Positions 5,756 to 25,471 of a DNA stretch of 35,084 bases are shown one piece after another. The stretch spans positions 1-35,084 of the forward strand of contig JAIYDB010000035.1 of the NCBI GenBank assembly GCA_027487695.1, read 5' to 3'. The translations under genes and the position numbers were made by a program. Positions within the stretch are counted from its first letter, which is position 1. Each line of letters opens with the position of its first letter. The DNA is from Cytophagaceae bacterium (lineage in GTDB: Bacteria > Bacteroidota > Bacteroidia > Cytophagales > Flexibacteraceae). Under the pieces are notes generated by a model, which worked only from the letters and a program-made list of their open reading frames with translations, did not search any database and was not told the origin of the DNA.

Positions 5756-8700
5756 TTATCTTCTTAGGATGGTTAACAAACCGTAGTATCTGCTTGGGCG
5801 TTCGCCAAAGGCTTCAACTTCAAGATAATAAACACCATCTGATAGTCCCTGACCATCAAAATCGTTTTGGTAATTATTACTGCGGAAAACCTCAGTTCCA
5901 TACCTATTGAATACACGCACCCTATGGTTAGGATATAGTAGGATATTAGTGATAATCACCCTATCGTTAATTCCATCGCCATTCACAGTAATTACATTAC
6001 CTAACGGCCTTAATGGGTTACTGAAGTTTAGCACTATTCTATTACTCCAGCTGTATAAATCGCCGTTGTTTTGAAGTGCCTTAATTCTGTAAACTTGGGT
6101 AAAGCCATCTCCCCCATTCTGGGCAGTAAATGTGAAGTTACTGGCAGAAGTTTGTGTGAGGTATTGTAGTGTGCCTGCATTATCTACCTCACGGTAAATT
6201 TCATAACGAGCAACACCCGTTGGCCAGCCTACAAACTCATTCCAAGCAAGGTTAGTGGATTGAGTTTCATCTACACTTGCACCCTTTAAAGTAAGCATTC
6301 GGAAAACTTCGCCACCTAGTTCAGTACCGCATTGGTTATTCACATTAGCGGTATATTCAAAGGTTTCTGTACTGCTACCTAGTTGTTGACGGTATTCAGA
6401 GGTGCCTCTTTCTAAATTAGCTTGGGTTACAAAGCTTTCACCTAAACCAAAGGCTCTTCTACCTATGGCAACTTTTCTATCAGTAGGCAGCTGATTGAAG
6501 TTAGCCAAGCTATAGGTTACAATTACCAACGAGTCATTATCCTCGTCACGGGTTAGGTTTATCACCTTTAATTCTGAATTATCGTACCTAATTGGCATAG
6601 GCAAACTATCGTTAGAGCAACCATTAGCAGTAACTTCTAAAACAGTTAGCTTTTTTGGTCCTGCCTCTAACCAGTTTATGACAATGGCAGTATCAAGGCT
6701 ACCACTAGGGTCTTCGCCTACAAAGGCACCACCTTCAATTCTCCAGAAGAATCTTGAGCCACGCAAGCCCGAAACTTGGTATTGCTTATTCAATAAATCA
6801 GTACTACAAAGTAGGCTATCATAAGAACTAGAAAGCTGAGTTCTAGGCACTTCAAATACCTCAACATCGGCAGGAATAACTCTACCTACACAACCATTAG
6901 AAGTTGTTTCACGAACCTGAATCTGGTACCTACCGGCAGTTCGCCATTCTATGTTAATTCTATTTCCAGAACTTGGCTGCAATACAACCCCATTACTAGG
7001 GTTCACTTGCCATTCATAAGTACTTCCATTAAAGCCGTTTATCTGATAATTACTTGGCTGATTAGTAGCACAAATAGAAGCCGTTCCGAAAACAGTTAGC
7101 GTATCTCTTGGCGACTCGTAAACATTTACGGTTAAGGTATCAGAGAAACCTTCACAACGAGAGGTAGAAGTATTACTATTTTCCTTAATCCAAATTTTAC
7201 CTACACCAGCACCGCTCCATCGTATTCTTATTTGAGGGTTTCCTTGTACTTCGCCTGGCTCAATAGTTCCAAGTCCGTTAGTAAACCAAGTATAAGTAGA
7301 ATTAGCGGTGAAGCCTGTTGTATAAGTCTGTACCAGAGGCTCTGAAGTACACAAGCGTGCAGCACCATCGGCAGTAGTAGGTTTTAAGCGTTCGTTAATG
7401 GTGATAATGATAGAGTCCTTAGTTCCTACGCAACCGTATTGGTTAGTAGGTACAACACTAATTCCAGCATTTTCTAAGGCAGAACCCCAGTTAACAGTTA
7501 TGTTTGATGTTCCTTGACCTGTAGCAATAGTACCACCTCTTACTTGCCAGTTATACGTATAGCCTGCATTATTAGGTACAGAATAACTTACCCCTAACAC
7601 ATCTGGACATACCCTTAACGATGGGAACTCCACTGGGTATTGTAACGGTCTAGGGTTAGTAATTACGTTAACAGTATCGTAATTGGTGCAACCATTGCCT
7701 AAGATTACTTCAAAAACTAGCTTTGTAGTGTCTGGCACTTGGCTAGTATTAGTATAGCTCACAGTTACAGAGCCTCCTTCAGAAAGCACCCTGCCAGTTT
7801 CAAGATCTGTCCAACGTCTTATTCTGTCAGTAGTACCAACTGCATTGCCCAGAGTAATTGAATCACCTGAACAAATAGCAGTATCTCTACCCGCATCGGC
7901 AATTGGCTTAGAATTAGTAGTTACAAACACAGTATCTTTTTTCTGGCAACCTGTTATTCGGTCAATCACATTCAGAACAACTGTATCAATAGTAAAGTTG
8001 CTGCCATCTGGAATAGATTTTCTAAATGAAACTCGAGCTGTATTTCTATTGCTTAAATAAGTAATAGGCGACCATTCATAGGCGTATCTATCCACACTAT
8101 CAGTACCAAGAATAGCAACAGCATCTGAACACAGCTGTGCCCTTGGTGCTAAATCATTGATAGGTAATGGCTGAATCCCTGCATAAACTGTGATTAACGT
8201 AGTACAACCTGTTAATCTATTGGTTTTCAGTAATTGATATCTTCTTGTAACCAATTGCTGGGTAGCATTTTGAATTACGAAATTCGCAGTAGGCACAGTA
8301 TCGTTACTGATATCTAGGTTTGGAGTCCACCTATAACTATAAGTAGCCAAATCGCCTGGTTCACCAATGCTTCCAACACTTCCAGAACAAGCAAAAGTGG
8401 TATCACCTTCAATTAAATTAGGTGGTGATGGATTTATACTTACATCAACCGTATCTTTATCAGAGCAGTTGGTCCTTACATTAAGCTTTTCAAGAACGAT
8501 GGTTTGGGTTATGGCTGCTGCTGTAGTATTGTTTACTCTAAAAGTAGGCTGAGCTAAATTGGCATCGTTCAAGTTACCTACTAAACCTGGTCGTAGTCCG
8601 TTTAATAAGCTCCAAGTATAAACATGGTTACGCTCTGGAGCTTCGCCACCTAAAACGGCAGGCACATTAGGACAAACTACCAAATCAGTGCCTGCTAAAG

Positions 8701-11700
8701 CCACCACTTGCGGTCTTACACGCATCGCAAAACGAGCAGAGTCTAAGCAGCCAGTTGTTTTATTAGTGATAATTAAAGTATATCGAACGGTATCCTCTAT
8801 TCTAGAAAGGTTTTCCTTTTGGAAAACAGGATTCGCCAATGTATCTGATGATAAGAATGCAGCAGGCACCCACCTATATCTGAAACCAGCCACAGGTGCA
8901 GCCCCTATTTGAGCTAGTTCATTTGAGCAAGCAGTATCTTTCCTTCCAACGATAGGACGTGGATTAGGTTCCACTTTTACAACAATAGTATCCTTGTTTT
9001 CACAACGTGTAGTACTATCAGTTACCGTTAAAATATAACGAGTAAAGGTTGGGGCTGTATCAGGATTTACACCCCTAACTACTGGCTGAGCAAATTCATG
9101 ATTGATTAATCCCATAGCTGGGGACCATCGATACCTTAAACCAGGAATAGGAGGAGCACCCAAAATAGCAGATTGTGCAGGGCAAAGGGTAACTGTATCA
9201 ACAGTACCAGCAATGGCAACTGGCAATGGTTTTATGGTAACCAGTACCGTATCTAAGTTAACACAATTGGTAAGGCTATTGGTGATGGTCTTTTTAAACC
9301 CAATTGCAATAGGATTTGAAGTAGGGTTCTGAGCTAATACCCTCACTTGAGCACCAGTTATGCTAACCAAACCTCCAGTTACCAACAAATTATTGGTAGA
9401 AAGCGGCTCCCATATATAGGTTTCGTTCGCTAAGGCAGGGGCACCTATTTGAACCACCACATTAGAACAAGTAGCTGTATCTGGTCCCGCAGTTTTTGAA
9501 GGCTTAGGATTTACTGTGATTAATACAGGAACTGTATTTATACAACCCGAACCTAAATCTGTAACCCTTACTTGGTAAGTTATTATTTGTGGAACAGTTC
9601 CATTGTTTGTCAATGTAATAAATGGATTAGCTACTGTAGTATCAGAAAGACCAGATCTAGTTAACCATTCATATCTATAACCAGCAGTTGGAATATTATC
9701 AAACAAGGTTGGAACCTCCGAACAAACAGATAGCGTTGTTCTATTCATGGTCGGCGTTGGTGCCACATCAATCACTACGGTATCTAAACCTGGACAACCC
9801 AAGGCTACATTTGTTGCTGTTAGGAACCAAGTTACCCTTCTATAAACAGTTCCTGAATTGAAATATGCTCTAGTAACAGTTGGTCCATTCACAACCTGAC
9901 CTTCAGAATTTCGCCAAACATAGCTAAAGCCCGGCTGTGGGGTAGTTCCAAAAGTATAAGTAGCTCCATTACAAACTGAATCGTCTGGTGCTTTTACGAT
10001 AGCTGGTTGCCCTTGAACAGTAAAGATTACTGTATTAATACCGAAACCGCAGCTAAATGGTCCCGTTACAACATATCTATAAGTAAAGCTCCCACCAGGT
10101 GGCACAGTATCCCAACGTACCCTTGGATTAAAGTTGGTATTACCAGAGTTAACAAAGTTTCGTGTATCTATCCAGTTAATTGAATAGCCTGGAGGTACAT
10201 TAGAAATCCCTAATCGTATTTCCTGCCCTTGGCAAGCAGAGGCATTGGCATTTAGCCTTAAGTTTTGAACTGTATTAACTAGTACTGTATCGCGCTGAAT
10301 GCAACCATTTGAACTCAAACTACTTACAATATATGCAGTAGTATCGGTTGGGGTGGCAGTAGGGTTGGCTATATTCGGATTACTTAAACCAGTTGTAGGA
10401 CTCCAAGTATAAATGCCATTACCACCAGTTACATTTAACTGTATGGTTTCGCCTTGACAAATAGTACGATTGGTGTTAGTTGTAGCTTGTAATGGGGGGA
10501 TAAGCTCAGTAACAACTGGTACTGAAACAGAATCTTTACAGCCACCGTTTGCTGCACTTGCAGTAGAAACTATCCTAATAAAATTGCTCGTACTACCCGT
10601 AGTCCACCGAACACCAATAGATGTAGTATTATTCGGATTACCTACAAGTGTACCTCCTTGCACCTTCCAAACTGAACTTGAATTAGCAGTAAGGTTAGGT
10701 ACGGTATAAGTGTAAACAGTATTATCGGCACAGGTTCTGTTCTGGCCGCTTATCACTCTTGGTCCTCTAAATGGACTTACGTTAATCGTAAATACAGCTC
10801 TTGTTGTAGAAGGCGGGCAACCCTTATCGGCAGCGGTAACCCTTACCACATAAGTACCTAGTACACTACAATTGGTATTCCAGTTGAAAGAAGTTTGAAC
10901 GCTGCCATCGCCAGTAACTCGAGCTAACGTTGCTCTTGGACCAGTATAACCATTGGCACCACTAATAATATCGGCCAATGGTTCAATGCTTAAGCTATCG
11001 CCCTCAGGATCATTATATCCAAAGTTAAAGTTTACGCTTTGCCCTGAAGTGATATTATAAACTGTTGGCAGCGAAGAAGGAGTAATTGTAGGCGGTTGGT
11101 TAGGCGGACAGTCGTTAGGACCGTTACCTGTTTCCCTTACCACAAATTGAAGTTCTCGTCGTGTAACCCCTATAAGCGTATCTGATAAACCTTCCCTTGC
11201 TCGATATTCTGATATCTCAAGGGTAACAGAATATTGCCCTGGTACCGTAGCAAAATAAGTAGAAAGTCCAGAGCTCGCATTGATACTGGCTAAACTCCCA
11301 TTGGTAGTTCCAAAAGGCTGACTAGGCGTAAACCCAGGTAACATTGGGATAATTGCAGGCGGCAGATACGTTGGTGGCTGTGGTAAACGCTCGCCATTGA
11401 ATGGTGCGCCAAAAGAATACTGAAGCCTATCACCGTCAGGGTCAACCGCTGTATTGATAAAGGTATTGCTTATATTGGTTAACATAAACGGAATAGCAAT
11501 ATCAGTAAACTGCGGGCTACTATTCGGAAACTCTCCTGGTGATGGAATTATGGCCTGAAATGTATTTCCTTTATCGTTACCGTTGCCAAGGTTTTCTGTA
11601 TTGTTTCTATCGGCAGTTCTGTGGTAAGCGATATATCCAGAGGCATCAAAAGGCAAATCAACCGTATATTCAAACCAGTTATACCATATTCTTATCCCAT

Positions 11701-12091
11701 TTAAGCAAGTTAATGTACAGCCGGGAGGAGTGCGCGGTGAAGTTTCACCTTTTTGCATAGTGATGACACGGTTATCAATCCTTGCTCCTGTTGATCTTCT
11801 GTAAATGGCAATCTGGGGTCTAGGGTTTTCGCCTTCTCTTGCAATTGCTCCCCAGTTAATTGTATCTGACGGATTGTTAGGGTCGCCAATTGGTTGATAG
11901 TTACTACCAGGACCCGCCCACACATACATCGATAGCTTTATGCTATATCTGAAAGTATTGGTATTCGACTGAAAACCAATATACCTATAGGTGATTTCTC
12001 CTCCCATTACGTGGGTGGCATAACTTTCTTGAGTAATACCTAAAAGTACTACTACCAAGTAAAACAGTCTTAATATATGTTTAACTTTCAT
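5756..12091 (-). CDS. Giant T9SS type B adhesin-like protein with about 16 Ig/PKD-like modules
   Basis: A 2111-aa secreted protein. A signal peptide covers about residues 1-25, and the mature start ATHVMGGEITYRYIG is the characteristic N-terminus of giant gliding-motility-associated proteins. An N-terminal beta domain reaches about residue 330, with DPDGD near 220. A DPEGDS-type cadherin-like unit follows at about 340-440. About 16 modules of roughly 87 aa then run from about 445 to 1840. Each opens with a Cys (TCADN, ICQGE, VCNGA, VCSEV, LCPAQ and so on), contains a YxW strand and closes near GC..DTV. Next is an Fn3-like segment (about 1925-2020) and a type B sorting domain (from about 2027) with NGDGIND, VRVFNRYGTEVF and a DGVYYLEV strand. 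It probably acts as a cell-surface or secreted adhesin. It lies 35 bp after the 1200-aa gene with no terminator between, so the two are probably co-transcribed. Confidence 0.93.
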   Translation of the reverse strand: MKVKHILRLFYLVVVLLGITQESYATHVMGGEITYRYIGFQSNTNTFRYSIKLSMYVWAGPGSNYQPIGDPNNPSDTINWGAIAREGENPRPQIAIYRRSTGARIDNRVITMQKGETSPRTPPGCTLTCLNGIRIWYNWFEYTVDLPFDASGYIAYHRTADRNNTENLGNGNDKGNTFQAIIPSPGEFPNSSPQFTDIAIPFMLTNISNTFINTAVDPDGDRLQYSFGAPFNGERLPQPPTYLPPAIIPMLPGFTPSQPFGTTNGSLASINASSGLSTYFATVPGQYSVTLEISEYRAREGLSDTLIGVTRRELQFVVRETGNGPNDCPPNQPPTITPSSLPTVYNITSGQSVNFNFGYNDPEGDSLSIEPLADIISGANGYTGPRATLARVTGDGSVQTSFNWNTNCSVLGTYVVRVTAADKGCPPSTTRAVFTINVSPFRGPRVISGQNRTCADNTVYTYTVPNLTANSSSVWKVQGGTLVGNPNNTTSIGVRWTTGSTSNFIRIVSTASAANGGCKDSVSVPVVTELIPPLQATTNTNRTICQGETIQLNVTGGNGIYTWSPTTGLSNPNIANPTATPTDTTAYIVSSLSSNGCIQRDTVLVNTVQNLRLNANASACQGQEIRLGISNVPPGYSINWIDTRNFVNSGNTNFNPRVRWDTVPPGGSFTYRYVVTGPFSCGFGINTVIFTVQGQPAIVKAPDDSVCNGATYTFGTTPQPGFSYVWRNSEGQVVNGPTVTRAYFNSGTVYRRVTWFLTATNVALGCPGLDTVVIDVAPTPTMNRTTLSVCSEVPTLFDNIPTAGYRYEWLTRSGLSDTTVANPFITLTNNGTVPQIITYQVRVTDLGSGCINTVPVLITVNPKPSKTAGPDTATCSNVVVQIGAPALANETYIWEPLSTNNLLVTGGLVSITGAQVRVLAQNPTSNPIAIGFKKTITNSLTNCVNLDTVLVTIKPLPVAIAGTVDTVTLCPAQSAILGAPPIPGLRYRWSPAMGLINHEFAQPVVRGVNPDTAPTFTRYILTVTDSTTRCENKDTIVVKVEPNPRPIVGRKDTACSNELAQIGAAPVAGFRYRWVPAAFLSSDTLANPVFQKENLSRIEDTVRYTLIITNKTTGCLDSARFAMRVRPQVVALAGTDLVVCPNVPAVLGGEAPERNHVYTWSLLNGLRPGLVGNLNDANLAQPTFRVNNTTAAAITQTIVLEKLNVRTNCSDKDTVDVSINPSPPNLIEGDTTFACSGSVGSIGEPGDLATYSYRWTPNLDISNDTVPTANFVIQNATQQLVTRRYQLLKTNRLTGCTTLITVYAGIQPLPINDLAPRAQLCSDAVAILGTDSVDRYAYEWSPITYLSNRNTARVSFRKSIPDGSNFTIDTVVLNVIDRITGCQKKDTVFVTTNSKPIADAGRDTAICSGDSITLGNAVGTTDRIRRWTDLETGRVLSEGGSVTVSYTNTSQVPDTTKLVFEVILGNGCTNYDTVNVITNPRPLQYPVEFPSLRVCPDVLGVSYSVPNNAGYTYNWQVRGGTIATGQGTSNITVNWGSALENAGISVVPTNQYGCVGTKDSIIITINERLKPTTADGAARLCTSEPLVQTYTTGFTANSTYTWFTNGLGTIEPGEVQGNPQIRIRWSGAGVGKIWIKENSNTSTSRCEGFSDTLTVNVYESPRDTLTVFGTASICATNQPSNYQINGFNGSTYEWQVNPSNGVVLQPSSGNRINIEWRTAGRYQIQVRETTSNGCVGRVIPADVEVFEVPRTQLSSSYDSLLCSTDLLNKQYQVSGLRGSRFFWRIEGGAFVGEDPSGSLDTAIVINWLEAGPKKLTVLEVTANGCSNDSLPMPIRYDNSELKVINLTRDEDNDSLVIVTYSLANFNQLPTDRKVAIGRRAFGLGESFVTQANLERGTSEYRQQLGSSTETFEYTANVNNQCGTELGGEVFRMLTLKGASVDETQSTNLAWNEFVGWPTGVARYEIYREVDNAGTLQYLTQTSASNFTFTAQNGGDGFTQVYRIKALQNNGDLYSWSNRIVLNFSNPLRPLGNVITVNGDGINDRVIITNILLYPNHRVRVFNRYGTEVFRSNNYQNDFDGQGLSDGVYYLEVEAFGERPSRYYGLLTILRR

Positions 12092-12126: not shown

Positions 12127-15100
12127 TTATAATTTATTCAATTTAAAGGTTCTCTGTTCGCCATTAACAAGAACTTGAACTAAATAAATGCCTGTTTTCA
12201 GATTACCAATATTCATTTGCTTTGTTCCTATGCCAGACTCTACCGTTTCTGTAATCATCGTTTTGCCAAGTACATCAGTAACTAAAACCTTAAAGTTTGA
12301 TCCCGCAAAACTACCCACCTGCCATTGTAATTTGAATTGATTACTAGCAGGGTTCGGGTATAAACTAAAGGAATTAAGCATTTCAGATTTTGCATTAGCC
12401 GGATCAATTACCAAAATGGCATAGTCTTCAATTTGTCCTGTAAAAGGAGCCTCGCAAGCGTTGGCAATAACACCAGCCTGATCGGCTCTTACTCTCATTC
12501 TTAATGGAACAGATTTTACAGCGTTTCTTGGCGCCTGTACGTTAATAGAATGTTCTAAACCTGTGCTTGCCAATACGCGCTCAGAGTTATCGAACGAGGC
12601 ATTGTTATTCCAGTCTATCCAAGCCATTACACTTTCTTCAAAAATAGTGTTAGTGCGTACAGATAACAAGTAAGCTGTATCCGGATGCAGGTTGGTTTGA
12701 TACAAACAACTATTGTTTACATAACCTTCTTCAAAAGCCGAATTTGAGTTATGGTTTATCGTTTTAAGGGTTACATTGTAAATACCTGAAATACTGAAAG
12801 CAGTTGCATTTGTAGGATTGGGAGAACAAGCAATTGGCAATGGCGAATTATTAAACCTAACTCTGATTGGGTTTGGAAACACAAATGTATCGGCACCAAA
12901 AGTATTATTTACAATTAAAGAAACAGTATAATTACCTTCTGCAGAGTAAGTATGGCTAGGGTTCTGAAGAGTGCTAGTTGCATTATCGCCAAAGTTCCAT
13001 AACCAAGAGGTAGGATCAAAACCGCTGCTATCAGCAAATTGGGCTAATGCGCTACAAGTAATATTTGTATATCCAAATTTTGCAACAGGCGCTCTGTTAC
13101 TAGCTTCAATATCTAAACCGTAATCTTCTACCTGCCCAAAGCTATTTAAGCAAGGGTCCACTAAGTCGTTAAAATCAACCGAAATTCTTAGTCTTGTTCT
13201 TCCGCTTCTTGCCGCTTGTGGTATCACAAACGAACCATTAAATGGATTAATACCACTGCTTGCCTGCAATACCAATTCAGAACTTGAGAAGTTACCATCT
13301 TTATTCCAATCGGCCCAAACGCCAATAAAACCTGCGTTTACTTGTTGACTTATTGTAATACTAACTGTTTGACCTCTAGTAACTGTTGCAAATTGTGAGC
13401 ACGCAAAATCTCTGTAGCCTTCTCTGGAATCGGACGTTGAATTATTTACTGTAAGGAAATTAACGTTGGTAATACCAGTAGTTGCTTGCGGCGATGTAGC
13501 AATTGGGGTGCAATTAGACGCAACCAAACCATTCGATTGCAATACTCTCACATAGTCAGTTCTTGTTAGTGAATCGGTTCCAAAGGCATTAGTAACTACT
13601 AATTTCACAGAATATGTACCCGGACTACTAAATGTAAAGTTAGGATTACGCTGTGTACTTGTACCTAAATTATTCCCAAAAGTCCAACGATAGGTGGTTG
13701 GAAGGTATAAACTACTATCAGTAAATTGAAAATACCCAGTACAATTGGCTCTATCTGTAGTACCAAAACGTGCCTGAGGTGCTCTATCAGGATACTTACA
13801 AATCACTACAATATCTTCTACTTCTCCTTGTGCTAAATTAGAACAAGCATTAAAGGTATTATTGCTTGATACCACCATACGCAAGCGCAAAGGTGTATTT
13901 TGCAATACGGTTAAGGCAGGGTTAATATTAGAGGTAATTTGCCCACTAGTGGTTTGGCTGTTTAAAATAGTTTCTGAGTTATCGAACCTGCCATTATTGT
14001 TCCAGTCAATGTAAACTTTTACAAAACTGGGAAAACCAGGATTGGATCGAGGACAAAAAATAGTAAGAACATTAGCAACCCCTGGGGTTAGAAACGCACC
14101 TCTATTACAAGTATTATCTCTATAACCTTCTGTACCAGCTCCAGAAGTATAATCTAATGTCCCAAGTCTAACTCTGGTAATGCCGTAACTTGAGCTCGCA
14201 TTGGCAATTGTAGGTGAACAATTGTTCAAAGCTGGAACAGAACCAAAAATACGAACTGCATTTGGTTTGACTACGGTATCTGAACCAAAGCTATTTGATA
14301 CTCTTAGTTCTACATTATAAGTACCAGGATTTATGTAAGTATGGGTTACGTTAGGCAAGGTTGTAGTTCTTGTATTACCATCGCCAAAGAACCATTGGTA
14401 ACTACTTCCGCCAACATTACCACTAAAGTTAAACTCCCTAGTAAATTGACATAAGCTGGTATCTAACTGCTCGAAATCTGCTTCTGGACGGGTAGTAAAG
14501 CCTGATACTATTACGGTATAATCTTCATACTGACCGTGAATCATCCCATTACAAGCGCTAAAATCAGAACCTGTAAAGTCTGAACCCACACGTAGCCTTA
14601 AAGGCACACCAGTTAAAGCATTGCTAGGAACAATAATTCTTACATTGTGCGATGTAGCATTGGTTTGAGAGCCAATGAGTTCAGCTGTTGAAAACTCGCC
14701 ATCGTTGTTTGCATCAAGCCAAACCTTAGTATCTTGACCTTCAGAGGCTGAACCATTAAAGGTAATTCTATACACGCCACTAGGAACCATTCTGGCCCTA
14801 AACCTACAGCTATAGTCTTGGTATCCGGAAGTATTTGGCAATCCAGTTGTGTTAATATTGAGCAATCGTAAGTTGGCAATGGTATATCCACAACATGGAG
14901 TAGCTGCACTTGGCGAACAAATATTAGCTTGGGCAACAGTATCGTTTAATACAATGAAGTTTTCTTTAGTAATCGTATTAGTGCCAAATGGGTTTTGGAC
15001 TACCAGTCTAATGGTATAAACTCCATTCCTATCATACGTATGAACAGGATTTTGATTAGTGCTGCTATCACCATCGCCAAAAAACCAACGCCATTGGGTG

Positions 15101-15729
15101 GGAGCATTTACACTTTCATCAAAAAAGGAAACCGTTGGAGAACATACAATAGAATCGGCAACAGAAAAACGAGCTGTAGGCGGCGATGAATTTTCTATAG
15201 CAATAATTGAAAAATCTACTCCCTGCCCTATTTGAGGGGTAAAACAAGGACCAATATTACTGTTCGTGGTTCTATCAGAAACTAATCTAACCCTCATTTT
15301 TCTGCCTAGAGGTACAGAAGTAGGCAAGGTAAATGAACCGCTATGAGAAATAGCAGCACCAGCATAAACCTGTTCCAAATTAGGATCAAATGAGTTATCA
15401 AGGTTTAAGTCGATATAGATTCTTAAGTTTTCATTAAAATTTGGACCTGTTCTTACAGTAAAATTGTAAGGCCTATTTCTGATAATTGAGATAGGAACAC
15501 CACAATACAAATTCTTGTACCCTTCAGTAGCACCAATGGCAGTGTAGTTTAATGTAGCAAAACGAACACTTCTAATTCCAGACCCAAATGCTCCAGCAGC
15601 AGGATCAGTAGCGTTACCAGGGCTACACTGAGCAACCGTATCGCACTGAGCAACAGCAACTCCTTGGCACAAGCCTAAAAGTAAAAGAACAATAAAACTT
15701 AATTTCGCAGGGTACTTTAGTAAACTCAT
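12127..15729 (-). CDS. T9SS type A substrate with alternating GEVED and PKD domains
   Basis: A 1200-aa secreted protein. A signal peptide ends near VAVAQ (about residue 28). Five GEVED-type domains are seen, each with a GYxxxxC opening, a WxDxNxDGxFxxxE-like calcium-style loop and a closing GQxEDY motif. They alternate with four PKD domains at about residues 186, 415, 655 and 885, recognisable by WxFGDG or WxFG, NPxHTY or an equivalent, and G-x-Y-x-V-x-L-x-V. The last 85 residues (from about 1115) are a type A sorting domain with SLYPNPAS, VLVTDVLGK and GIYLVQV. Type IX secretion and cell-surface or extracellular location follow from established knowledge of this tail. Target ligand is unknown. 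This is the first gene of the two-gene minus-strand operon. Confidence 0.94.
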   Translation of the reverse strand: MSLLKYPAKLSFIVLLLLGLCQGVAVAQCDTVAQCSPGNATDPAAGAFGSGIRSVRFATLNYTAIGATEGYKNLYCGVPISIIRNRPYNFTVRTGPNFNENLRIYIDLNLDNSFDPNLEQVYAGAAISHSGSFTLPTSVPLGRKMRVRLVSDRTTNSNIGPCFTPQIGQGVDFSIIAIENSSPPTARFSVADSIVCSPTVSFFDESVNAPTQWRWFFGDGDSSTNQNPVHTYDRNGVYTIRLVVQNPFGTNTITKENFIVLNDTVAQANICSPSAATPCCGYTIANLRLLNINTTGLPNTSGYQDYSCRFRARMVPSGVYRITFNGSASEGQDTKVWLDANNDGEFSTAELIGSQTNATSHNVRIIVPSNALTGVPLRLRVGSDFTGSDFSACNGMIHGQYEDYTVIVSGFTTRPEADFEQLDTSLCQFTREFNFSGNVGGSSYQWFFGDGNTRTTTLPNVTHTYINPGTYNVELRVSNSFGSDTVVKPNAVRIFGSVPALNNCSPTIANASSSYGITRVRLGTLDYTSGAGTEGYRDNTCNRGAFLTPGVANVLTIFCPRSNPGFPSFVKVYIDWNNNGRFDNSETILNSQTTSGQITSNINPALTVLQNTPLRLRMVVSSNNTFNACSNLAQGEVEDIVVICKYPDRAPQARFGTTDRANCTGYFQFTDSSLYLPTTYRWTFGNNLGTSTQRNPNFTFSSPGTYSVKLVVTNAFGTDSLTRTDYVRVLQSNGLVASNCTPIATSPQATTGITNVNFLTVNNSTSDSREGYRDFACSQFATVTRGQTVSITISQQVNAGFIGVWADWNKDGNFSSSELVLQASSGINPFNGSFVIPQAARSGRTRLRISVDFNDLVDPCLNSFGQVEDYGLDIEASNRAPVAKFGYTNITCSALAQFADSSGFDPTSWLWNFGDNATSTLQNPSHTYSAEGNYTVSLIVNNTFGADTFVFPNPIRVRFNNSPLPIACSPNPTNATAFSISGIYNVTLKTINHNSNSAFEEGYVNNSCLYQTNLHPDTAYLLSVRTNTIFEESVMAWIDWNNNASFDNSERVLASTGLEHSINVQAPRNAVKSVPLRMRVRADQAGVIANACEAPFTGQIEDYAILVIDPANAKSEMLNSFSLYPNPASNQFKLQWQVGSFAGSNFKVLVTDVLGKTMITETVESGIGTKQMNIGNLKTGIYLVQVLVNGEQRTFKLNKL

Positions 15730-19630: not shown

Positions 19631-21253
19631 ATGCGTTTTCCTTTCAAGCAATTTCTTTATTCTATACTATTATTATTGGTTGCCTTTAAAGGCAAGGCAC
19701 AAACTATTCAAGATGTTGAAAAAATCCCATCTGATAGTTTAAGAGGCCACCTTTACCCTTGGCGTGCAGCTATTGATGTGCTTAACTATAACATCAACCT
19801 AGAAGTAAAGCCAAAAACCAAGACCATAAACGGTTTTGTAACAATAAGTTTTAAAGTATTAAAGCCCACTAAACTATTACAATGGGACTTAGATACTGCC
19901 CTACAGATAAGCCATATTACCAGCAAAAATCCAACAATTAGCCAAGCTTCAATTAAACGAAAGCATAGCGCAGTATTCCTTCAAACCAATTCGGTTCTAA
20001 CAAAAGGAATTTACAAGATAATCTTACATTATGCCGGCAAGCCAAAAGAAAGCAAACAACCACCTTGGGATGGTGGCTTTGTTTGGAAAACTGATAGCAC
20101 TGGCACACCTTGGATAGGACTTGCGGTAGAAGGCGAAGGGGCAAGTTTATGGTTCCCTTGCAAAGACCACCTATCTGATAAGGCAACTTTTATTGTTACC
20201 TGTACGGCTCCAAAACCATTAAAATACATAGGAAACGGTAAGCAATTTTCTTACCATGAAACCGATACCACCACCACTACAACTTGGGGTGTTGCAGCAC
20301 AAGCCCCCACATACTCAATTAGCTTGAATATAGGTAGGTATCAGCACATACCAGATAGCATGATAGGACTGAAAGGAAAACTGAATCTGGACTATTACGT
20401 ACTACCAGAAAACATTGAAAAAGCAAAAACCTACTTCAGCAAAGAAGTAAAACCAATGATAACTGCCTTTGAAAAAAGGCTAGGACCCTACCCATTCTAT
20501 GCAGATGGATATGCACTTATTCAAACACCATATTGGGGAATGGAGCATCAAAGCGGAATAGCCTATGGCAACAACTTCGTTAAGAATAAGGCAAATATGG
20601 ACTTTATCATAGTTCATGAAAGCGCACATGAATGGTGGGGAAACAGCCTCAGTTGCTCAGATCATGCTAATATGTTTATACAAGAAGGATACTGCACCTA
20701 CAGCGAATTTCTGTATTTGGAAGAAACTAAAACGCACGAAGAAATAGAAATATGGCTTAAACACCACTACAACCAAATTAGGAATAAATACCCAATGCGT
20801 GGTCCAGAACACATTAATTACCTAAATTCTGATACCGATATATACTACAAATACGCGCTAGTTTTATATACTATAAGGCAACTAATTGGCGATACAAAGT
20901 TTAATGACTATCTCAAAAATTTCTACAACTCAGGCAAGAATAAGTCAATAACCTATGCACAGTTTCAAGCTAGTAATACAAAATATCTAGGCAAAAAATA
21001 CGCAAAACTCTTAGAATGGTACATAACCAATTCCCAACTACCAACCATACAATATAAAAAAACCAAGAATGGAGTTTATATTCGTTGGGATGTAACCAAG
21101 CTATCAAATATAGCAATCCCTATAGAAGTACAACACATAACAAGGGACGTAAGTCTTAGTAATACCTGGCAGAAAATAGCTCCATCTGCTCCCAATATTG
21201 AAATAAAATTAGCAAAACCTTACCTACTATTTAACCTGCAGCAAATAAGGTAA
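19631..21253 (+). CDS. Secreted M1-family metallopeptidase
   Basis: A 540-aa gluzincin aminopeptidase. A signal peptide covers about residues 1-23, ending near GKAQT. The zinc site is HESAH at about 326, followed after exactly 18 residues by the third ligand Glu in QEGYCTY, as M1 requires. The substrate-binding GAMEN motif is replaced by WGMEHQSG at about 301-308, a variant I recall in other Bacteroidota M1 enzymes. An N-terminal beta-saddle domain (about 40-230) is present. The protein ends soon after the catalytic and linker region and lacks the long C-terminal helical domain of PepN. It has no T9SS tail. It lies 47 bp after the dehydratase and 39 bp before the kinase. Confidence 0.9.
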   Translation: MRFPFKQFLYSILLLLVAFKGKAQTIQDVEKIPSDSLRGHLYPWRAAIDVLNYNINLEVKPKTKTINGFVTISFKVLKPTKLLQWDLDTALQISHITSKNPTISQASIKRKHSAVFLQTNSVLTKGIYKIILHYAGKPKESKQPPWDGGFVWKTDSTGTPWIGLAVEGEGASLWFPCKDHLSDKATFIVTCTAPKPLKYIGNGKQFSYHETDTTTTTTWGVAAQAPTYSISLNIGRYQHIPDSMIGLKGKLNLDYYVLPENIEKAKTYFSKEVKPMITAFEKRLGPYPFYADGYALIQTPYWGMEHQSGIAYGNNFVKNKANMDFIIVHESAHEWWGNSLSCSDHANMFIQEGYCTYSEFLYLEETKTHEEIEIWLKHHYNQIRNKYPMRGPEHINYLNSDTDIYYKYALVLYTIRQLIGDTKFNDYLKNFYNSGKNKSITYAQFQASNTKYLGKKYAKLLEWYITNSQLPTIQYKKTKNGVYIRWDVTKLSNIAIPIEVQHITRDVSLSNTWQKIAPSAPNIEIKLAKPYLLFNLQQIR

Positions 21254-21292: not shown

Positions 21293-24200
21293 ATGAATAC
21301 CCAGTCTGAACATAAAACATTAAAGGAAAAGTACCAGCAGTTGGAACTTGAGCTTGCCGCGGCGAGGAAAGAAATCGACTATTTAACCACAGAAAATACA
21401 AGATTAATTGAAGCCCGCAATTCAGGAAATTCAACAAATAACTTAGCAAATACAAAACCGAATAATGTTCCATTGTACTGGGACGAGCTTTTAAGTAAGA
21501 TATACGAAAATAGCCATTCAGCCATTTTAATATTTAATACTACTAAACACGAGGTAGTTAGTGTTAATAAACGAGCAATTGAATTATTTGAAGCAGAAAG
21601 CACTAGTCAGTTCCATTCTTCCTACCAGCCTGAGCTAGAATTTGTAAAAACAACCGAAAAAGACCTAGCTGCACTATACAGTCAAGTAAAAGAAAAGGGT
21701 AAAGCTTCAAGGCTATTTCATTACAAAACTTTTAAAGGAAGGCCATTTTGGGGATTGTGCCAAATACAAAGTTTTGATTTCAACAATGAATCAATTCTTG
21801 CAATAAGAATTAGTGATATTAACGAGCATCTGAAGGAAAAAGAAGTTTCAGAAGCAATTATAAGTACTTACTACCAACTAACCGATAGTATCAATAATAT
21901 TGCCATAATTACTTTCAATACAGATTTTGTATGCACGCTAATGAGCGGCCAATATGCTGAAAAAATTAATCTAAATTCAAAATATTGTGTAGGCAAGCAC
22001 ATTTCAGATATTGCACATCCTGAATTCTTAGAAAAGAATATAAACGCCTTACAAATAGCCAAAAAAGGCAAATCTGAAACCTACTACTTCTTATTTAACA
22101 ACTGCTATACCCAGGCCGATATAGTACCTATTAAAAACAATAAAAACGAAGTACTAAATATAATGGTTTTGTTACAAGACCGAACCATTGAATACCAAAG
22201 AGAACAAACTTTATTATTGAACGAAGAACTGCTGAATGGCAGCTTTATGGAATCGCCAGTGGCAATGGCATTGGTTGATATAGAAAGTGGCGAATTCATA
22301 AAGAAAAACAACTTTAGCAACAAATTATTCCATAAATACCAAATTCCACAACAATTCACATACTTTCAGCTTATCAAAAGCTTGCCATTTGATAACCCAA
22401 TTCTACAAGACCAACTTTTAGGGCTAAAGAAAAACAACAGCTTCTATGAACAAGCCAAGTTTAATTTTCCTAATACCACTCCCGGCTATTTACAAATAGC
22501 CATGCGTAAAATAAATATAGGCGATAAAAAATACGCTCTATTTATTTTGACCGATATATCTGAAATTATTATAAAACAGCAAGAGCTACAAGATAGCAGA
22601 GAGTTGTTGAACGCTCTTTACCAAAATACTTCATTCGGTCTTTTATTAATCAGAAAATCAGACCTAGTAATAAAAGGAGCCAACTCTACCATTCTTGGCT
22701 ATATAAATAAACGGAATGAATTAGATGTTATTGGCGAGGTGTTTGAAAAACCTTTTGGTGAATTACTATCTACACTAAATAGAAGTGCATTTAAACTACT
22801 TAACAATAGCAGTGAGTCAATAAAAGGGGAAACTTCTGGCACCGATGCATATGGCAACAATAAGCACTTTTCTTTTGAAATAACTAAAATCAATCAAAAT
22901 GAAATAGAATATTACTTAATTAATATTTCAGATAACACTGATAAAATAAAGCATGAATTACAACTACTAGAGAACAAAAATCTCCTTAAAATAGTAGTTG
23001 AATCTTCGCCATTTCAAACTTATTTGTGCGAGGGTCCTGAGATGAAGGTAATAATGGCTAACAGCATTGGCTATAATTCACTAGGATATAATTTACTAGA
23101 GGAAATAAAAGGAGTTTCTTTAATATCGTTCAAAAACATAATAGCAAAACAATACGAAGAAATATGGAGTACTGCTATTGAAAACAATACTTCCGACAGA
23201 TTTGAAATTGAGGTTAACTTTCCAAATAACCCCAATAAAAGTTGGTTGCAAATTTTCTTGAAAAGAGTAAAAACAGAACAGGGAACACTCACCTTAGTTA
23301 AGGCAATAGATATTACAAAACAAAAAGAATTACAAAATGAACTATTCAGAAGTCAACAAATTATTTCAGAAATATTCAACCAAAGTACCGATGCTATTTT
23401 TGTAAGGAATGCAATAAATAATGATGAAATTATTTGCAATCAAGTAGCTTTAGATTTATTTGACGCTGAAAGTAAAACACAGTTTGCTTCAAAGCTTATA
23501 AGTGATTACGCGGCAGATGATGTTACACCTGAAAGAGAACTAGAATTCCAAAATCAACTATTAACCAAAGGCTATTCTAAAGAAGATTTTCATTTTAAAT
23601 CACTAAAAGGTAGAACTTTCTGGGGCTATACAAGGGTAAAAACCTTTTCTGTAGAAGATGAACTTTATATTCTATACATAGTAACTGACATCTCTGAATT
23701 TAAGGAAAAAGCAAAACTGCTTGAAGAAAATGAAAAGAACTTCAAACAGCTATTCTACAATAACCCTCAGGCTATGTTTATTGTAGAATCAGATAGCGAG
23801 GTAATTATCGATGCCAACAATGCTGCTCTAAAACAATACGGATATGTAACAGAAAATTTTATAGGGCGAGAAATAAGTTTATTAGGTGGTTGCAATACAA
23901 AATGCCTAGAATTTGACGAAGAAACTCAAATCGAAAACTACGGAACTGTTTCCCATAAAAAGGCCGATGGCACTGAAATTTTTGTTGACCTAAAGAAAAC
24001 TTCTATCTTAAGATCAGCTCCAGGCAATTACAAGCTATGCATAGCTAGTGATATTACTAAGTTAAAAGTAATTGAAAATGAACTTATACAAAGTAAGTTT
24101 TATTTAGAAAATATTATTAATACCGATCCGAACCCAATTTTCGTGAAAGATTTACAGGGCAATATGGTATTGGTTAATAAATCATTTGCCAGAGTTGCCA

Positions 24201-25471
24201 ATAAAAAGATTGAAGACATCATCAATAAAAATGAAAGAGATTTATACCCTCCAAACGAATTAGCCTTTTTTGAAGAAACCGATAACTTAGTTTTAAAAAG
24301 CAACAAGCTCTGTTCTTTTGAACAGAACGATGTAAATACACCTTTCCACAAAAAACAGCATTTTATTACCTATAAAACACCGCTTGTATTACAAGATAAT
24401 AAAGTAAATATTTTGGGTGTTATGGTTGATATTACCAGCCAAAAAGAAGCTGAACTTGAGATGGCTCGCAGAGGGCAGCTTTTTAACTTCGTTTTTAATA
24501 ATAGTACCGATGCTCTTTTTATTGTTGACACGAGTACTGATTTAATAATGGACGTTAATGAACGTACACTCCAAATGTTTGGCTATGGTTCTAAAAACGA
24601 TTTTATTGGCAAAGATGGAACACGACTACAAGTACGTGATTTTACTAATGAGGAATTAAAATCAATACAAAATGATATTGAATTATCAGGCGGCTTTAGC
24701 AGAGAAGTTGAATACGAAAGAAGAGATCGTACCACATTTTGGGGCAGTTTAGCAGGGAGTGTGTTTATGGTGGGTGGCAAGAAATACTACTTAATAAGAG
24801 TATTAGACATCCAAAAATCTAGAGAATATCAGGATGCGCTTGCTAATTCTGTTCACGAAAAGGAAATACTTATAAAAGAAGTACACCATAGAGTAAAAAA
24901 TAACATGGCTGTAATTAGTGGTCTGTTACAATTACAAAGCAGTTACTTTAAAGATAAGGCTACCAGAGAAGCATTTAAAGAGGCGCAAAACAGAATTAAA
25001 GGCATGGCACTTATACATGAAATGCTATACCAGACAGATTCTCTCACCCATATTAATTTCGGAAGATATATCAATACATTAGTTGGCAATATCCAACGTA
25101 GTATGGAACAGCACTGCCCAATTTACGTAAACCTAGATATTTCAAACGATACCATTGATTTGATATCGGCTGTGCCTTGCGGACTAATCATAAATGAACT
25201 AATAACTAATTGTTATAAGCATGCATTTACGGATAGGCCTAAAGGCACTATTTGGATTACATATAAACTTGTAGAAAACAACTATATTATTACAGTTACA
25301 GACGATGGAATTGGGCTTCCTGCTGAAAAGTTAGAACTAAAGAAACAGAATAGCTTAGGTATGATTCTGATCACTGAACTAACCAGGCAGTTAAAAGGCG
25401 AAATTTTGCTTGTATCAGAAAATGGTACTAAATACACACTTACCTTCCCTCAAAAGGAAGAATCTAAATAA
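21293..25471 (+). CDS. Cytoplasmic nine-PAS sensor histidine kinase (HisKA_2 type)
   Basis: A 1392-aa protein with no signal peptide or membrane helix. An N-terminal coiled coil (about 5-45) is followed by nine PAS-like units starting near residues 62, 192, 313, 437, 563, 690, 815, 936 and 1062, a regular spacing of about 125. Most end in a DIS/DIT-type strand leading into a short coiled coil. Units 1, 6 and 9 share a GRxFWG-like strand and may be duplicates. The kinase core begins with KEVHHRVKNNMAVISGLLQLQ (phosphoacceptor His at about 1195), then an ATPase domain with NELITNCYKH (about 1301), DDGIGLP (1336) and NSLGMILI. HisKA_2 kinases usually signal to a separate response regulator; none is in this window. 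The ligand is unknown, and no haem or flavin signature is evident. Confidence 0.93.
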   Translation: MNTQSEHKTLKEKYQQLELELAAARKEIDYLTTENTRLIEARNSGNSTNNLANTKPNNVPLYWDELLSKIYENSHSAILIFNTTKHEVVSVNKRAIELFEAESTSQFHSSYQPELEFVKTTEKDLAALYSQVKEKGKASRLFHYKTFKGRPFWGLCQIQSFDFNNESILAIRISDINEHLKEKEVSEAIISTYYQLTDSINNIAIITFNTDFVCTLMSGQYAEKINLNSKYCVGKHISDIAHPEFLEKNINALQIAKKGKSETYYFLFNNCYTQADIVPIKNNKNEVLNIMVLLQDRTIEYQREQTLLLNEELLNGSFMESPVAMALVDIESGEFIKKNNFSNKLFHKYQIPQQFTYFQLIKSLPFDNPILQDQLLGLKKNNSFYEQAKFNFPNTTPGYLQIAMRKINIGDKKYALFILTDISEIIIKQQELQDSRELLNALYQNTSFGLLLIRKSDLVIKGANSTILGYINKRNELDVIGEVFEKPFGELLSTLNRSAFKLLNNSSESIKGETSGTDAYGNNKHFSFEITKINQNEIEYYLINISDNTDKIKHELQLLENKNLLKIVVESSPFQTYLCEGPEMKVIMANSIGYNSLGYNLLEEIKGVSLISFKNIIAKQYEEIWSTAIENNTSDRFEIEVNFPNNPNKSWLQIFLKRVKTEQGTLTLVKAIDITKQKELQNELFRSQQIISEIFNQSTDAIFVRNAINNDEIICNQVALDLFDAESKTQFASKLISDYAADDVTPERELEFQNQLLTKGYSKEDFHFKSLKGRTFWGYTRVKTFSVEDELYILYIVTDISEFKEKAKLLEENEKNFKQLFYNNPQAMFIVESDSEVIIDANNAALKQYGYVTENFIGREISLLGGCNTKCLEFDEETQIENYGTVSHKKADGTEIFVDLKKTSILRSAPGNYKLCIASDITKLKVIENELIQSKFYLENIINTDPNPIFVKDLQGNMVLVNKSFARVANKKIEDIINKNERDLYPPNELAFFEETDNLVLKSNKLCSFEQNDVNTPFHKKQHFITYKTPLVLQDNKVNILGVMVDITSQKEAELEMARRGQLFNFVFNNSTDALFIVDTSTDLIMDVNERTLQMFGYGSKNDFIGKDGTRLQVRDFTNEELKSIQNDIELSGGFSREVEYERRDRTTFWGSLAGSVFMVGGKKYYLIRVLDIQKSREYQDALANSVHEKEILIKEVHHRVKNNMAVISGLLQLQSSYFKDKATREAFKEAQNRIKGMALIHEMLYQTDSLTHINFGRYINTLVGNIQRSMEQHCPIYVNLDISNDTIDLISAVPCGLIINELITNCYKHAFTDRPKGTIWITYKLVENNYIITVTDDGIGLPAEKLELKKQNSLGMILITELTRQLKGEILLVSENGTKYTLTFPQKEESK

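Follow-up and report, generated by a model that had tools for sequence, protein, structure and literature searches.

Several soluble histidine kinases of the HWE/HisKA_2 type, among them EL346, Brucella LOV-HK, PhyK and LovK, combine a HisKA_2 core with PAS input and have no membrane helix. One single-domain regulator is reported to receive phosphate from HWE/HisKA_2 kinases and also to act on other kinases (PMC5964349). Long PAS arrays have been described as well, and a cyanobacterial histidine kinase with up to 19 PAS domains has been published (PMC10468136). Multi-PAS HisKA_2 cassettes, in which a long PAS array is joined to a HisKA_2 core, are found in Bacteroidota and cyanobacteria. The kinase considered here, P0001, is like all of these in its general design. 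It is encoded within 35,084 nucleotides of DNA from a Cytophagaceae bacterium, the whole of which is referred to below as the window.

Domain organization of P0001

The P0001 gene (positions 21,293–25,471, forward strand, as are all features given with coordinates below) begins with ATG and encodes 1392 amino acids. Searching the whole protein against Pfam returned HisKA_2 (E = 1.1e-28), HATPase_c (5.8e-12) and PAS families. The HisKA_2 match (PF07568) scored 104.4 bits against a curated cut-off of 22.3, or 102.6 bits when the domain was isolated, and the HATPase_c match scored 50.3 bits against 26.4. The dimerization/phosphoacceptor domain and the HATPase_c domain span 24,848–25,468, from residue 1186. 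HHRVKNN lies at residues 1198–1204, with the phosphoacceptor presumably the histidine before RVKNN, H1199, and the N, G1 and G2 boxes of the HATPase_c domain are all present as NEL, DDGIGLP and SLGM. This is the single HisKA_2 match in the draft genome, which is 96% complete. The N-terminal segment (residues 1–59; 21,293–21,469) is probably helical or a coiled coil, and residues 10–41 gave a sub-threshold match to a coiled-coil family in the whole-protein search. No membrane helix was found in P0001, the maximum Kyte-Doolittle mean over 19 residues being 1.46.

Between these ends lie nine units, U1 to U9, with boundaries that were placed by eye at residues 60, 188, 306, 433, 558, 684, 811, 934 and 1060. 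The successive spacings, the last from U9 to the kinase, are 128, 118, 127, 125, 126, 127, 123, 126 and 126 residues. P0001 is confirmed as a soluble histidine kinase with nine PAS units, HisKA_2 and HATPase_c, and the first-pass annotation was right to describe a cytosolic sensor with no membrane helix, a HisKA_2 core and nine units at a period of about 125 residues.

Sequence and predicted fold of the units

Examined unit by unit with Pfam, U1 (21,470–21,853), U7 (23,723–24,091), U8 (24,092–24,469) and U9 (24,470–24,847) exceeded the PAS cut-off, U2 (21,854–22,207) and U6 (23,342–23,722) gave weak PAS matches, and U3 (22,208–22,588), U4 (22,589–22,963) and U5 (22,964–23,341) gave none. A profile built on 252 PAS units taken from other kinases of the HisKA_2 type, which was reached by iteration from P0001's own units and is not fully independent of them, matched all nine (U1 4e-11, U2 1.3e-7, U3 9e-4, U4 2.2e-6, U5 3.1e-10, U6 2.9e-12, U7 1.2e-14, U8 1.6e-16, U9 1.4e-18). 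Because a match stronger than that of U3 occurred in 4 of 200 shuffled copies of P0001, U3 is insecure by this profile alone. With hhalign, U5 was clear as a PAS unit; U3 scored 20.8 at a probability of only 23 (best of 30 shuffles, 11.9) and U4 scored 19.8 at a probability of only 18 (best of 30 shuffles, 12.6).

U3 and U4, weak by sequence, are assigned as PAS by predicted fold. In AlphaFold2 models, the strands and helices of all nine units follow the PAS order (mean pLDDT 80.9 and 78.4); the alignments used were rich in PAS rows, which favours a PAS-fold outcome. U7 was modelled without a long helix F. Matches of the models in the PDB included PpsR, DosP, NifL and FixL. The first-pass annotation had named fewer than nine predicted PAS folds as grounds for giving up its reading, and the prediction was PAS-like in every unit.

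Relationships among the units

The FWG strand previously noticed in units 1, 6 and 9 is present at residues 152, 776 and 1149, and the three units do form a subfamily; within P0001, strong links occur only among them (z 17–29). Weaker links join U7 with U9 (z 13–15), U3 with U6 (z 9–11) and U5 with U7 (z about 8), while U2, U4 and U8 lack strong links to the rest of the P0001 units. A single diverged repeat as the source of all nine units was rejected, strong kinship being limited to U1, U6 and U9. Compared with 265 units of other HisKA_2 kinases, U1 and U6 are mutual best matches, and no unit found in 59 genomes comes nearer to either of them. One of the two has probably arisen from the other by copying, and sequence comparison suggests that both are lineage-specific copies. 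The nearest units to U9 lie outside P0001 (unit 7 of L124, unit 3 of L113 and the last units of the family relatives), and U1 and U6 likewise resemble L124 and L113 more than they resemble U9. The expectation that the units resemble one another more than they resemble outsiders therefore holds for U1 and U6 and fails for U9.

U8 and U9, the conserved penultimate and kinase-proximal units, are an old pair common to the family relatives, and U2 has a counterpart in G004 and, more weakly, in G007, so the earlier view that units other than the FWG type have simply diverged was mistaken. When the units of four family relatives were compared one at a time, an FWG-type unit was found only at the kinase-proximal place, with FWG in G006, G009 and G004 and IWG in G003; in three of the four, from genus g4, the U8-type unit is duplicated instead. 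FWG is not supported as a ligand signature and is read as a subfamily mark. That a different unit is repeated in P0001 and in g4 offers a small natural series on the growth of PAS arrays.

Genomic neighbourhood

A profile search found no response regulator among the window's open reading frames (ORFs) of at least 80 residues, and the ORFs scanned with Pfam or NCBIfam, some of the small ones among them, gave no match to a REC, GGDEF or transcription-factor domain. The first-pass annotation had reported as much for the window; its broader description of a kinase with no visible partner holds there and fails genome-wide, where candidate receivers lie on other contigs. An M1-family peptidase gene on the same strand (19,631–21,253) ends 39 nucleotides upstream of P0001. 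An M1 peptidase adjoins the kinase in G000, G004 and G007, the last two of genus g5; among the matches listed for the other eight family genomes, none adjoins a HisKA_2 match, and of 148 genomes from the order at least 116 carry M1 homologues at 1e-20. Given this patchy adjacency and the commonness of M1 peptidases, the gene was rejected as a functional partner and is read as shared gene order.

Related kinases often do have a neighbouring regulator. In a set of 87 related kinase frames with at least 400 nucleotides downstream, a regulator lay directly downstream in 47; in the remaining 40 it was elsewhere within two ORFs (9), present as a receiver in the same frame (1) or not found (30). The 80 related loci are the best of 582 picked out by patterns that required HHRVKN-type motifs, and so no random sample. 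Among the 17 frames with at least five PAS units, 13 had a regulator directly downstream and three had none. Orphan status is thus a minority condition among long arrays, yet it is common to the family's sister kinases, as judged by a downstream script that missed regulators adjoining L104 and L112, seen from their coordinates. A quick version of a kinase-domain tree weakly groups P0001 with G003, G006 and G009 (support of 82 on an open fork). One member of the order groups with Larkinella and Dyadobacter in this tree, which points to Cytophagales as the order.

Candidate partners

The draft genome encodes 21 receiver domains. When these were ranked with a profile of 47 adjacent partner receivers, P0002 (contig C59), a second orphan kinase with an N-terminal REC domain, PAS units, HisKA and HATPase_c, scored 139.7 bits, P0003 (contig C102), a single-domain regulator, scored 81.2, and the next receiver 59.3. 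Leave-one-out scores of the partners were 128–177 for 46 of the 47, with one at 16.9, so that P0002 falls inside the partner range and P0003 below it. Pairing does not follow from a high score: among 12 control receivers with no listed kinase nearby, two reached 142 and 147.

Across the 148 genomes, a receiver match (E-value of at most 1e-20 against a profile built from 36 of the partner receivers) was found in 55/55 genomes with HisKA_2 versus 22/93 without, and in 55/55 versus 21/69 when only genomes of at least 2.7 Mb were counted; the counts were made by hand, and the relatedness of the genomes inflates the Fisher test that was run. Proteins of the P0002 kind have precedent as partners, with REC proteins carrying HisKA and HATPase_c directly downstream of HisKA_2 kinases at L124, L119 and L136. 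At L161 the downstream REC protein carries only HATPase_c, which brings the total to four of ten partners scanned. P0002 is matched at 2.4e-78 or better in all 11 family genomes, with a partner-class receiver at the front of the homologue in 10; in G006 the gene start is cut by the contig end. In G010, the only HisKA_2 match has its own neighbouring regulator, yet a P0002 homologue is present, so the partner of P0002 could be another kinase. No gene adjacency joins P0001 to P0002 or P0003, and the closest long-array cassettes carry LytTR-size regulators, not receiver-kinases. A photolyase beside P0002 was considered as a link to light and dropped, none being found in the 11 P0002-homologue loci, each taken with at most 1.5 kb of flanking sequence.

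Proposed function and alternatives

P0001 may be a soluble kinase that reads several cytoplasmic signals via its chain of nine PAS modules. These predicted folds, joined by helices, would bind ligands or relay changes along a helical spine, with the conserved U8–U9 pair feeding into the HisKA_2 core. Autophosphorylation would occur on the histidine of HHRVKNN, a motif present in P0001, and the receiver classes suggest that phosphate could then pass in trans to the N-terminal receiver of P0002, perhaps also to P0003. The odds that P0001 is a multi-signal PAS kinase of this kind, with partner-class receivers as its phosphotransfer targets in trans, appear even. A two-tier circuit, in which P0001 controls P0002 through its N-terminal receiver, the unlinked genes are kept together in one family and the array grows by copying a different unit in each genus, is a good deal more tentative. 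Were the C59 route true, one orphan kinase would control another. In a genome with one HisKA_2 match, the ranking supplies the orphan kinase with a concrete, testable candidate partner, and the receiver profile could help to propose partners for further orphans of the HisKA_2 type.

Most of the PAS units may instead bind no separate ligand, the array being mainly a long dimerizing helical spacer in which a single unit or a few truly sense (U9, perhaps also U1 and U6), a possible if somewhat doubtful reading that is compatible with any choice of partner. Consistent with it are the sequence weakness of U3 and U4, the variable unit count among family relatives (5–6 versus nine in P0001) and the absence of LOV (GxNCRFLQ-type) and CxxC patterns from P0001 by pattern search. 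U9 contains neither Cys nor His; with regard to FixL-type haem ligation, U5 also has no His, and U6 has H767 only. However, all nine predicted folds are PAS-like, and PAS domains can bind ligands without Cys or His.

Other readings concern the route of the phosphate. It is unlikely, though worth weighing, that the main target is P0003, as a phosphorylation hub in the manner of MrrA or SdrG, while P0002 answers to something else. P0003 ranks second of the 21 receivers, six kinases of another HisKA_2 clade in the same family (L029, L096–L100; support 98) precede regulator frames of 123–136 residues scoring 91–109, and a published hub takes phosphate from several HWE/HisKA_2 kinases (PMC5964349). 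The 81.2 bits of P0003 nevertheless stand well below the range of 128–177, and P0003 may be the remnant of that other cassette after kinase loss. A classical regulator as the target, whether LytTR, NtrC-like or another, as in relatives, seems less probable again. Ten multi-PAS HisKA_2 kinase records (L130, L135, L145, L148, L151, L152, L157, L159, L160 and L187) are followed by a regulator of 248–259 residues, LytTR by Pfam for L160 and by length and look for the other nine, and sigma-54 activators with a partner-class receiver follow HisKA_2 kinases in G026, G075, G014 and G033; against this, the genome's own LytTR-looking receivers (L038, L043 and L047, judged by eye) reach only 35–58 bits. 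L043 adjoins a weak HATPase_c match. A degenerate or inactive kinase is very improbable: beyond the missing adjacent regulator nothing speaks for it, and the intact motifs and the HisKA_2 score of P0001 speak against it.

Comparison with described kinases

The predicted structure of P0001 from U6 to the C-terminus, searched with Foldseek, returned Brucella LOV-HK (6ph4) at rank 1 and EL346 (4r3a) at rank 5. In contrast to these kinases, PhyK and LovK, which have one or two PAS domains and come from Alphaproteobacteria, P0001 has nine non-LOV PAS units and comes from Bacteroidota. The long-array cassettes L160, L124 and L152, with 11, nine and eight PAS units by profile, differ from P0001 in having a regulator directly downstream. 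In this respect P0001 is closer to the orphan kinases of its own family in G003, G006, G009 and G004, for which no regulator was found directly downstream and which are 40%, 38%, 36% and 33% identical to it over U8–U9 and the kinase; that of G004 shares the M1 peptidase neighbour. These relatives have five or six units by profile (L074, L075 and L077 six, L076 five) rather than nine, although an N-terminal stretch in the six-unit G004 kinase, with room for a seventh, matched no P0001 unit; the U8-type unit is doubled in g4, whereas the FWG type is repeated in P0001. The first-pass annotation called the sensor unusually long. Nine PAS units are indeed long, but not exceptional in kind beside the 11 of L160 and the published cyanobacterial kinase, which follows the same long-array principle with more units (up to 19; PMC10468136). 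P0001 is a long example of an already known kind of sensor kinase.

P0001: A Soluble Multi-PAS Kinase

P0001 is a single open frame (window 21293-25471, + strand, 1392 aa) in a draft genome of 2.89 Mb (129 contigs, 96% complete), of which the window is contig C77. The first-pass annotation had described a cytosolic protein with a HisKA_2 core, and this was borne out: Pfam matched PAS families, HisKA_2 and HATPase_c, and no membrane helix was found by hydropathy. The kinase is real: a long, soluble HisKA_2 protein with multiple PAS units, U1-U9, starting at residues 60, 188, 306, 433, 558, 684, 811, 934, and 1060, and the kinase part at residue 1186.

When Pfam was run per unit, four units were above cut-off, two were weak, and three were undetected. 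A profile made with 252 PAS units taken from other kinases matched 9/9 units, with the U3 match beaten by 4 of 200 shuffled copies of P0001; hhalign placed U3 and U4 low yet above shuffles, and U5 clearly as PAS. AlphaFold2 models of U1-U5 (mean pLDDT 80.9) and of U6 to the C-terminal end (mean pLDDT 78.4) have the PAS order of elements in every unit, U7 being without the long helix F, from input alignments rich in PAS arrays, which favours a predicted PAS fold. Both models have a pTM of 0.39, and therefore inform on the unit folds and not on the relative arrangement of units. Foldseek matches of the two were PpsR, DosP, NifL, FixL, and LOV-histidine kinases. On these profiles and predicted folds the earlier count of nine PAS units is accepted, U3 and U4 being weak in sequence. 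No LOV or CxxC pattern was found in P0001 by pattern search. U9 contains neither Cys nor His, which speaks against a putative cofactor held there by either residue.

Probable Growth of the PAS Array

U1, U6, and U9 (the FWG type) had been proposed as relatives, and their mutual scores agree: 174 for U1-U6 (z 24-29), and 110 and 124 for U1-U9 and U6-U9 (z 17-21). Weaker links join U7-U9 (z 13-15), U3-U6 (z 9-11), and U5-U7 (z about 8). Closer kinship to each other than to outside units held for U1 and U6 but not for U9. In a comparison with 265 units from other HisKA_2 kinases, U1 and U6 were reciprocal best matches (67.4 bits), followed by unit 7 of 9 in the kinase L124 (55.1 and 50.1 bits); own U9 ranked only fourth for each, and its own best matches were external (L124 unit 7 at 85.9, and unit 3 of 3 in L113 at 85.5). 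Across 59 genomes, U6 again found own U1 first (60.8 bits), then a unit of G014 (53.5), with own U9 at 39.3 bits beneath four outside units. By these scores, one of U1 and U6 is most likely a copy of the other, and their source may be either U9 or a unit of FWG type in a different protein.

Four family relatives were compared unit by unit: L074, L075, and L076 of genus g4, and L077. In each, a strong FWG-type signal is confined to the final unit (z 18-23 to U9, 9-16 to U1/U6), and the penultimate one resembles U8 (z 22-42). The g4 kinases have a further U8-like unit just before it (z 17-21); this adjoining pair appears to be a second, separate duplication. Repetition of the FWG type in P0001 and of the U8 type in g4 points to array growth through unit copying, the copied unit differing between genera.

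Genomic Neighbourhood

An M1 peptidase gene, common in the order, ends 39 nt upstream of P0001. A homologue also adjoins the kinase in two genomes of genus g5 (G004, G007) and, among the matches listed, in none of the other eight family genomes. We take this adjacency in g1 (the genus of P0001) and g5 to reflect common descent of the locus, and it supports orthology of the kinases. Elsewhere in the window, two minus-strand genes encode proteins with type IX secretion tails, one of 2111 aa (5756-12091; CHU_C, PKD_6, Ig_7) and one of 1200 aa (12127-15729; GEVED, PKD, Por_Secre_tail). In a quick tree, the kinase of L142, a record titled Kuenenia (Planctomycetota), fell among Flavobacteriales, possibly from a mis-binned contig.

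Candidate Partners

As first reported, no response regulator is seen in the window: a profile search of its ORFs of 80 aa or more found no receiver domain. Among 87 related kinase frames with room downstream, from 80 loci (the best 80 of 582), a regulator directly follows the kinase in 47 and lies elsewhere within two ORFs in nine; one carries a receiver within its own frame, and 30 have no regulator. For the 17 frames with at least five PAS units, these counts are 13, 1, 0, and 3. Long-array relatives in this sample are thus mostly regulator-flanked and the orphan P0001 is a minority case, as are the family relatives L003-L006, likewise without an adjoining regulator. Because the partner proposal rests on receiver ranking, this count leaves its odds unaffected. 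Outputs were scanned for 10 of the 47 regulators (LytTR 2, GGDEF-EAL 4, HisKA-HATPase_c 3, HATPase_c with a second receiver 1); in another four order members, the outputs are sigma-54 activators. HWE/HisKA_2 kinases tend toward outputs often without a DNA-binding domain, according to PMC10359499.

The genome has one HisKA_2 match and 21 receiver matches, 19 above cut-off. Ranked by a profile of the 47 partner receivers, P0002 (contig C59) scored 139.7, P0003 (contig C102) 81.2, and the next 59.3 bits. The 47 themselves scored 128-177 when left out, with one exception at 16.9; ten of 12 control receivers scored at or below 78, and the other two 142 and 147. P0002 (1012 aa) is an orphan kinase: an N-terminal REC is joined by PAS (three stretches in Pfam), HisKA, and HATPase_c, and the middle of the protein has no Pfam assignment. 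It is matched at 2.4e-78 or better in 11/11 family genomes. P0003 (129 aa) is a receiver domain alone. A photolyase/cryptochrome gene (L193:3933-5500) ends 133 nt upstream of P0002 on the same strand. Other receivers of this genome include a lone 136-aa response regulator within an apparent surface-polysaccharide gene cluster (L080, contig C100), and a 246-aa protein (L087, contig C110) whose receiver is C-terminal (residues 127-239) and whose N-terminal region resembles an Hpt domain by eye.

HisKA_2 is present in 55 of 148 genomes of the order. With a profile of 36 partner receivers and a match threshold of 1e-20, all 55 had a match, versus 22 of the 93 without HisKA_2 (55/55 versus 21/69 among genomes of at least 2.7 Mb); nine of the 148 had no match to this profile at all, and none of these has HisKA_2. 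Fisher values, from genome counts made by hand from match lists, were 6e-23 and 6e-18, both too small owing to genome relatedness. The association supports the receiver class rather than a specific pair with P0001. Of the results here, the partner proposal is the most useful, and it is still unproven.

Comparison with Known Systems

In PMC5964349, the single-domain regulator MrrA is fed by several HWE/HisKA_2 kinases and hands phosphate on to other kinases; PMC9981736 deals with a related receiver motif. HWE/HisKA_2 kinases are enriched among those lacking membrane segments, according to PMC10359499. In a literature search, 'nine PAS domains' as a phrase turned up in one paper, in another sense; up to 19 PAS domains in a single histidine kinase are on record (PMC10468136). 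Long PAS arrays in histidine kinases are already known, and P0001 joins that known kind.
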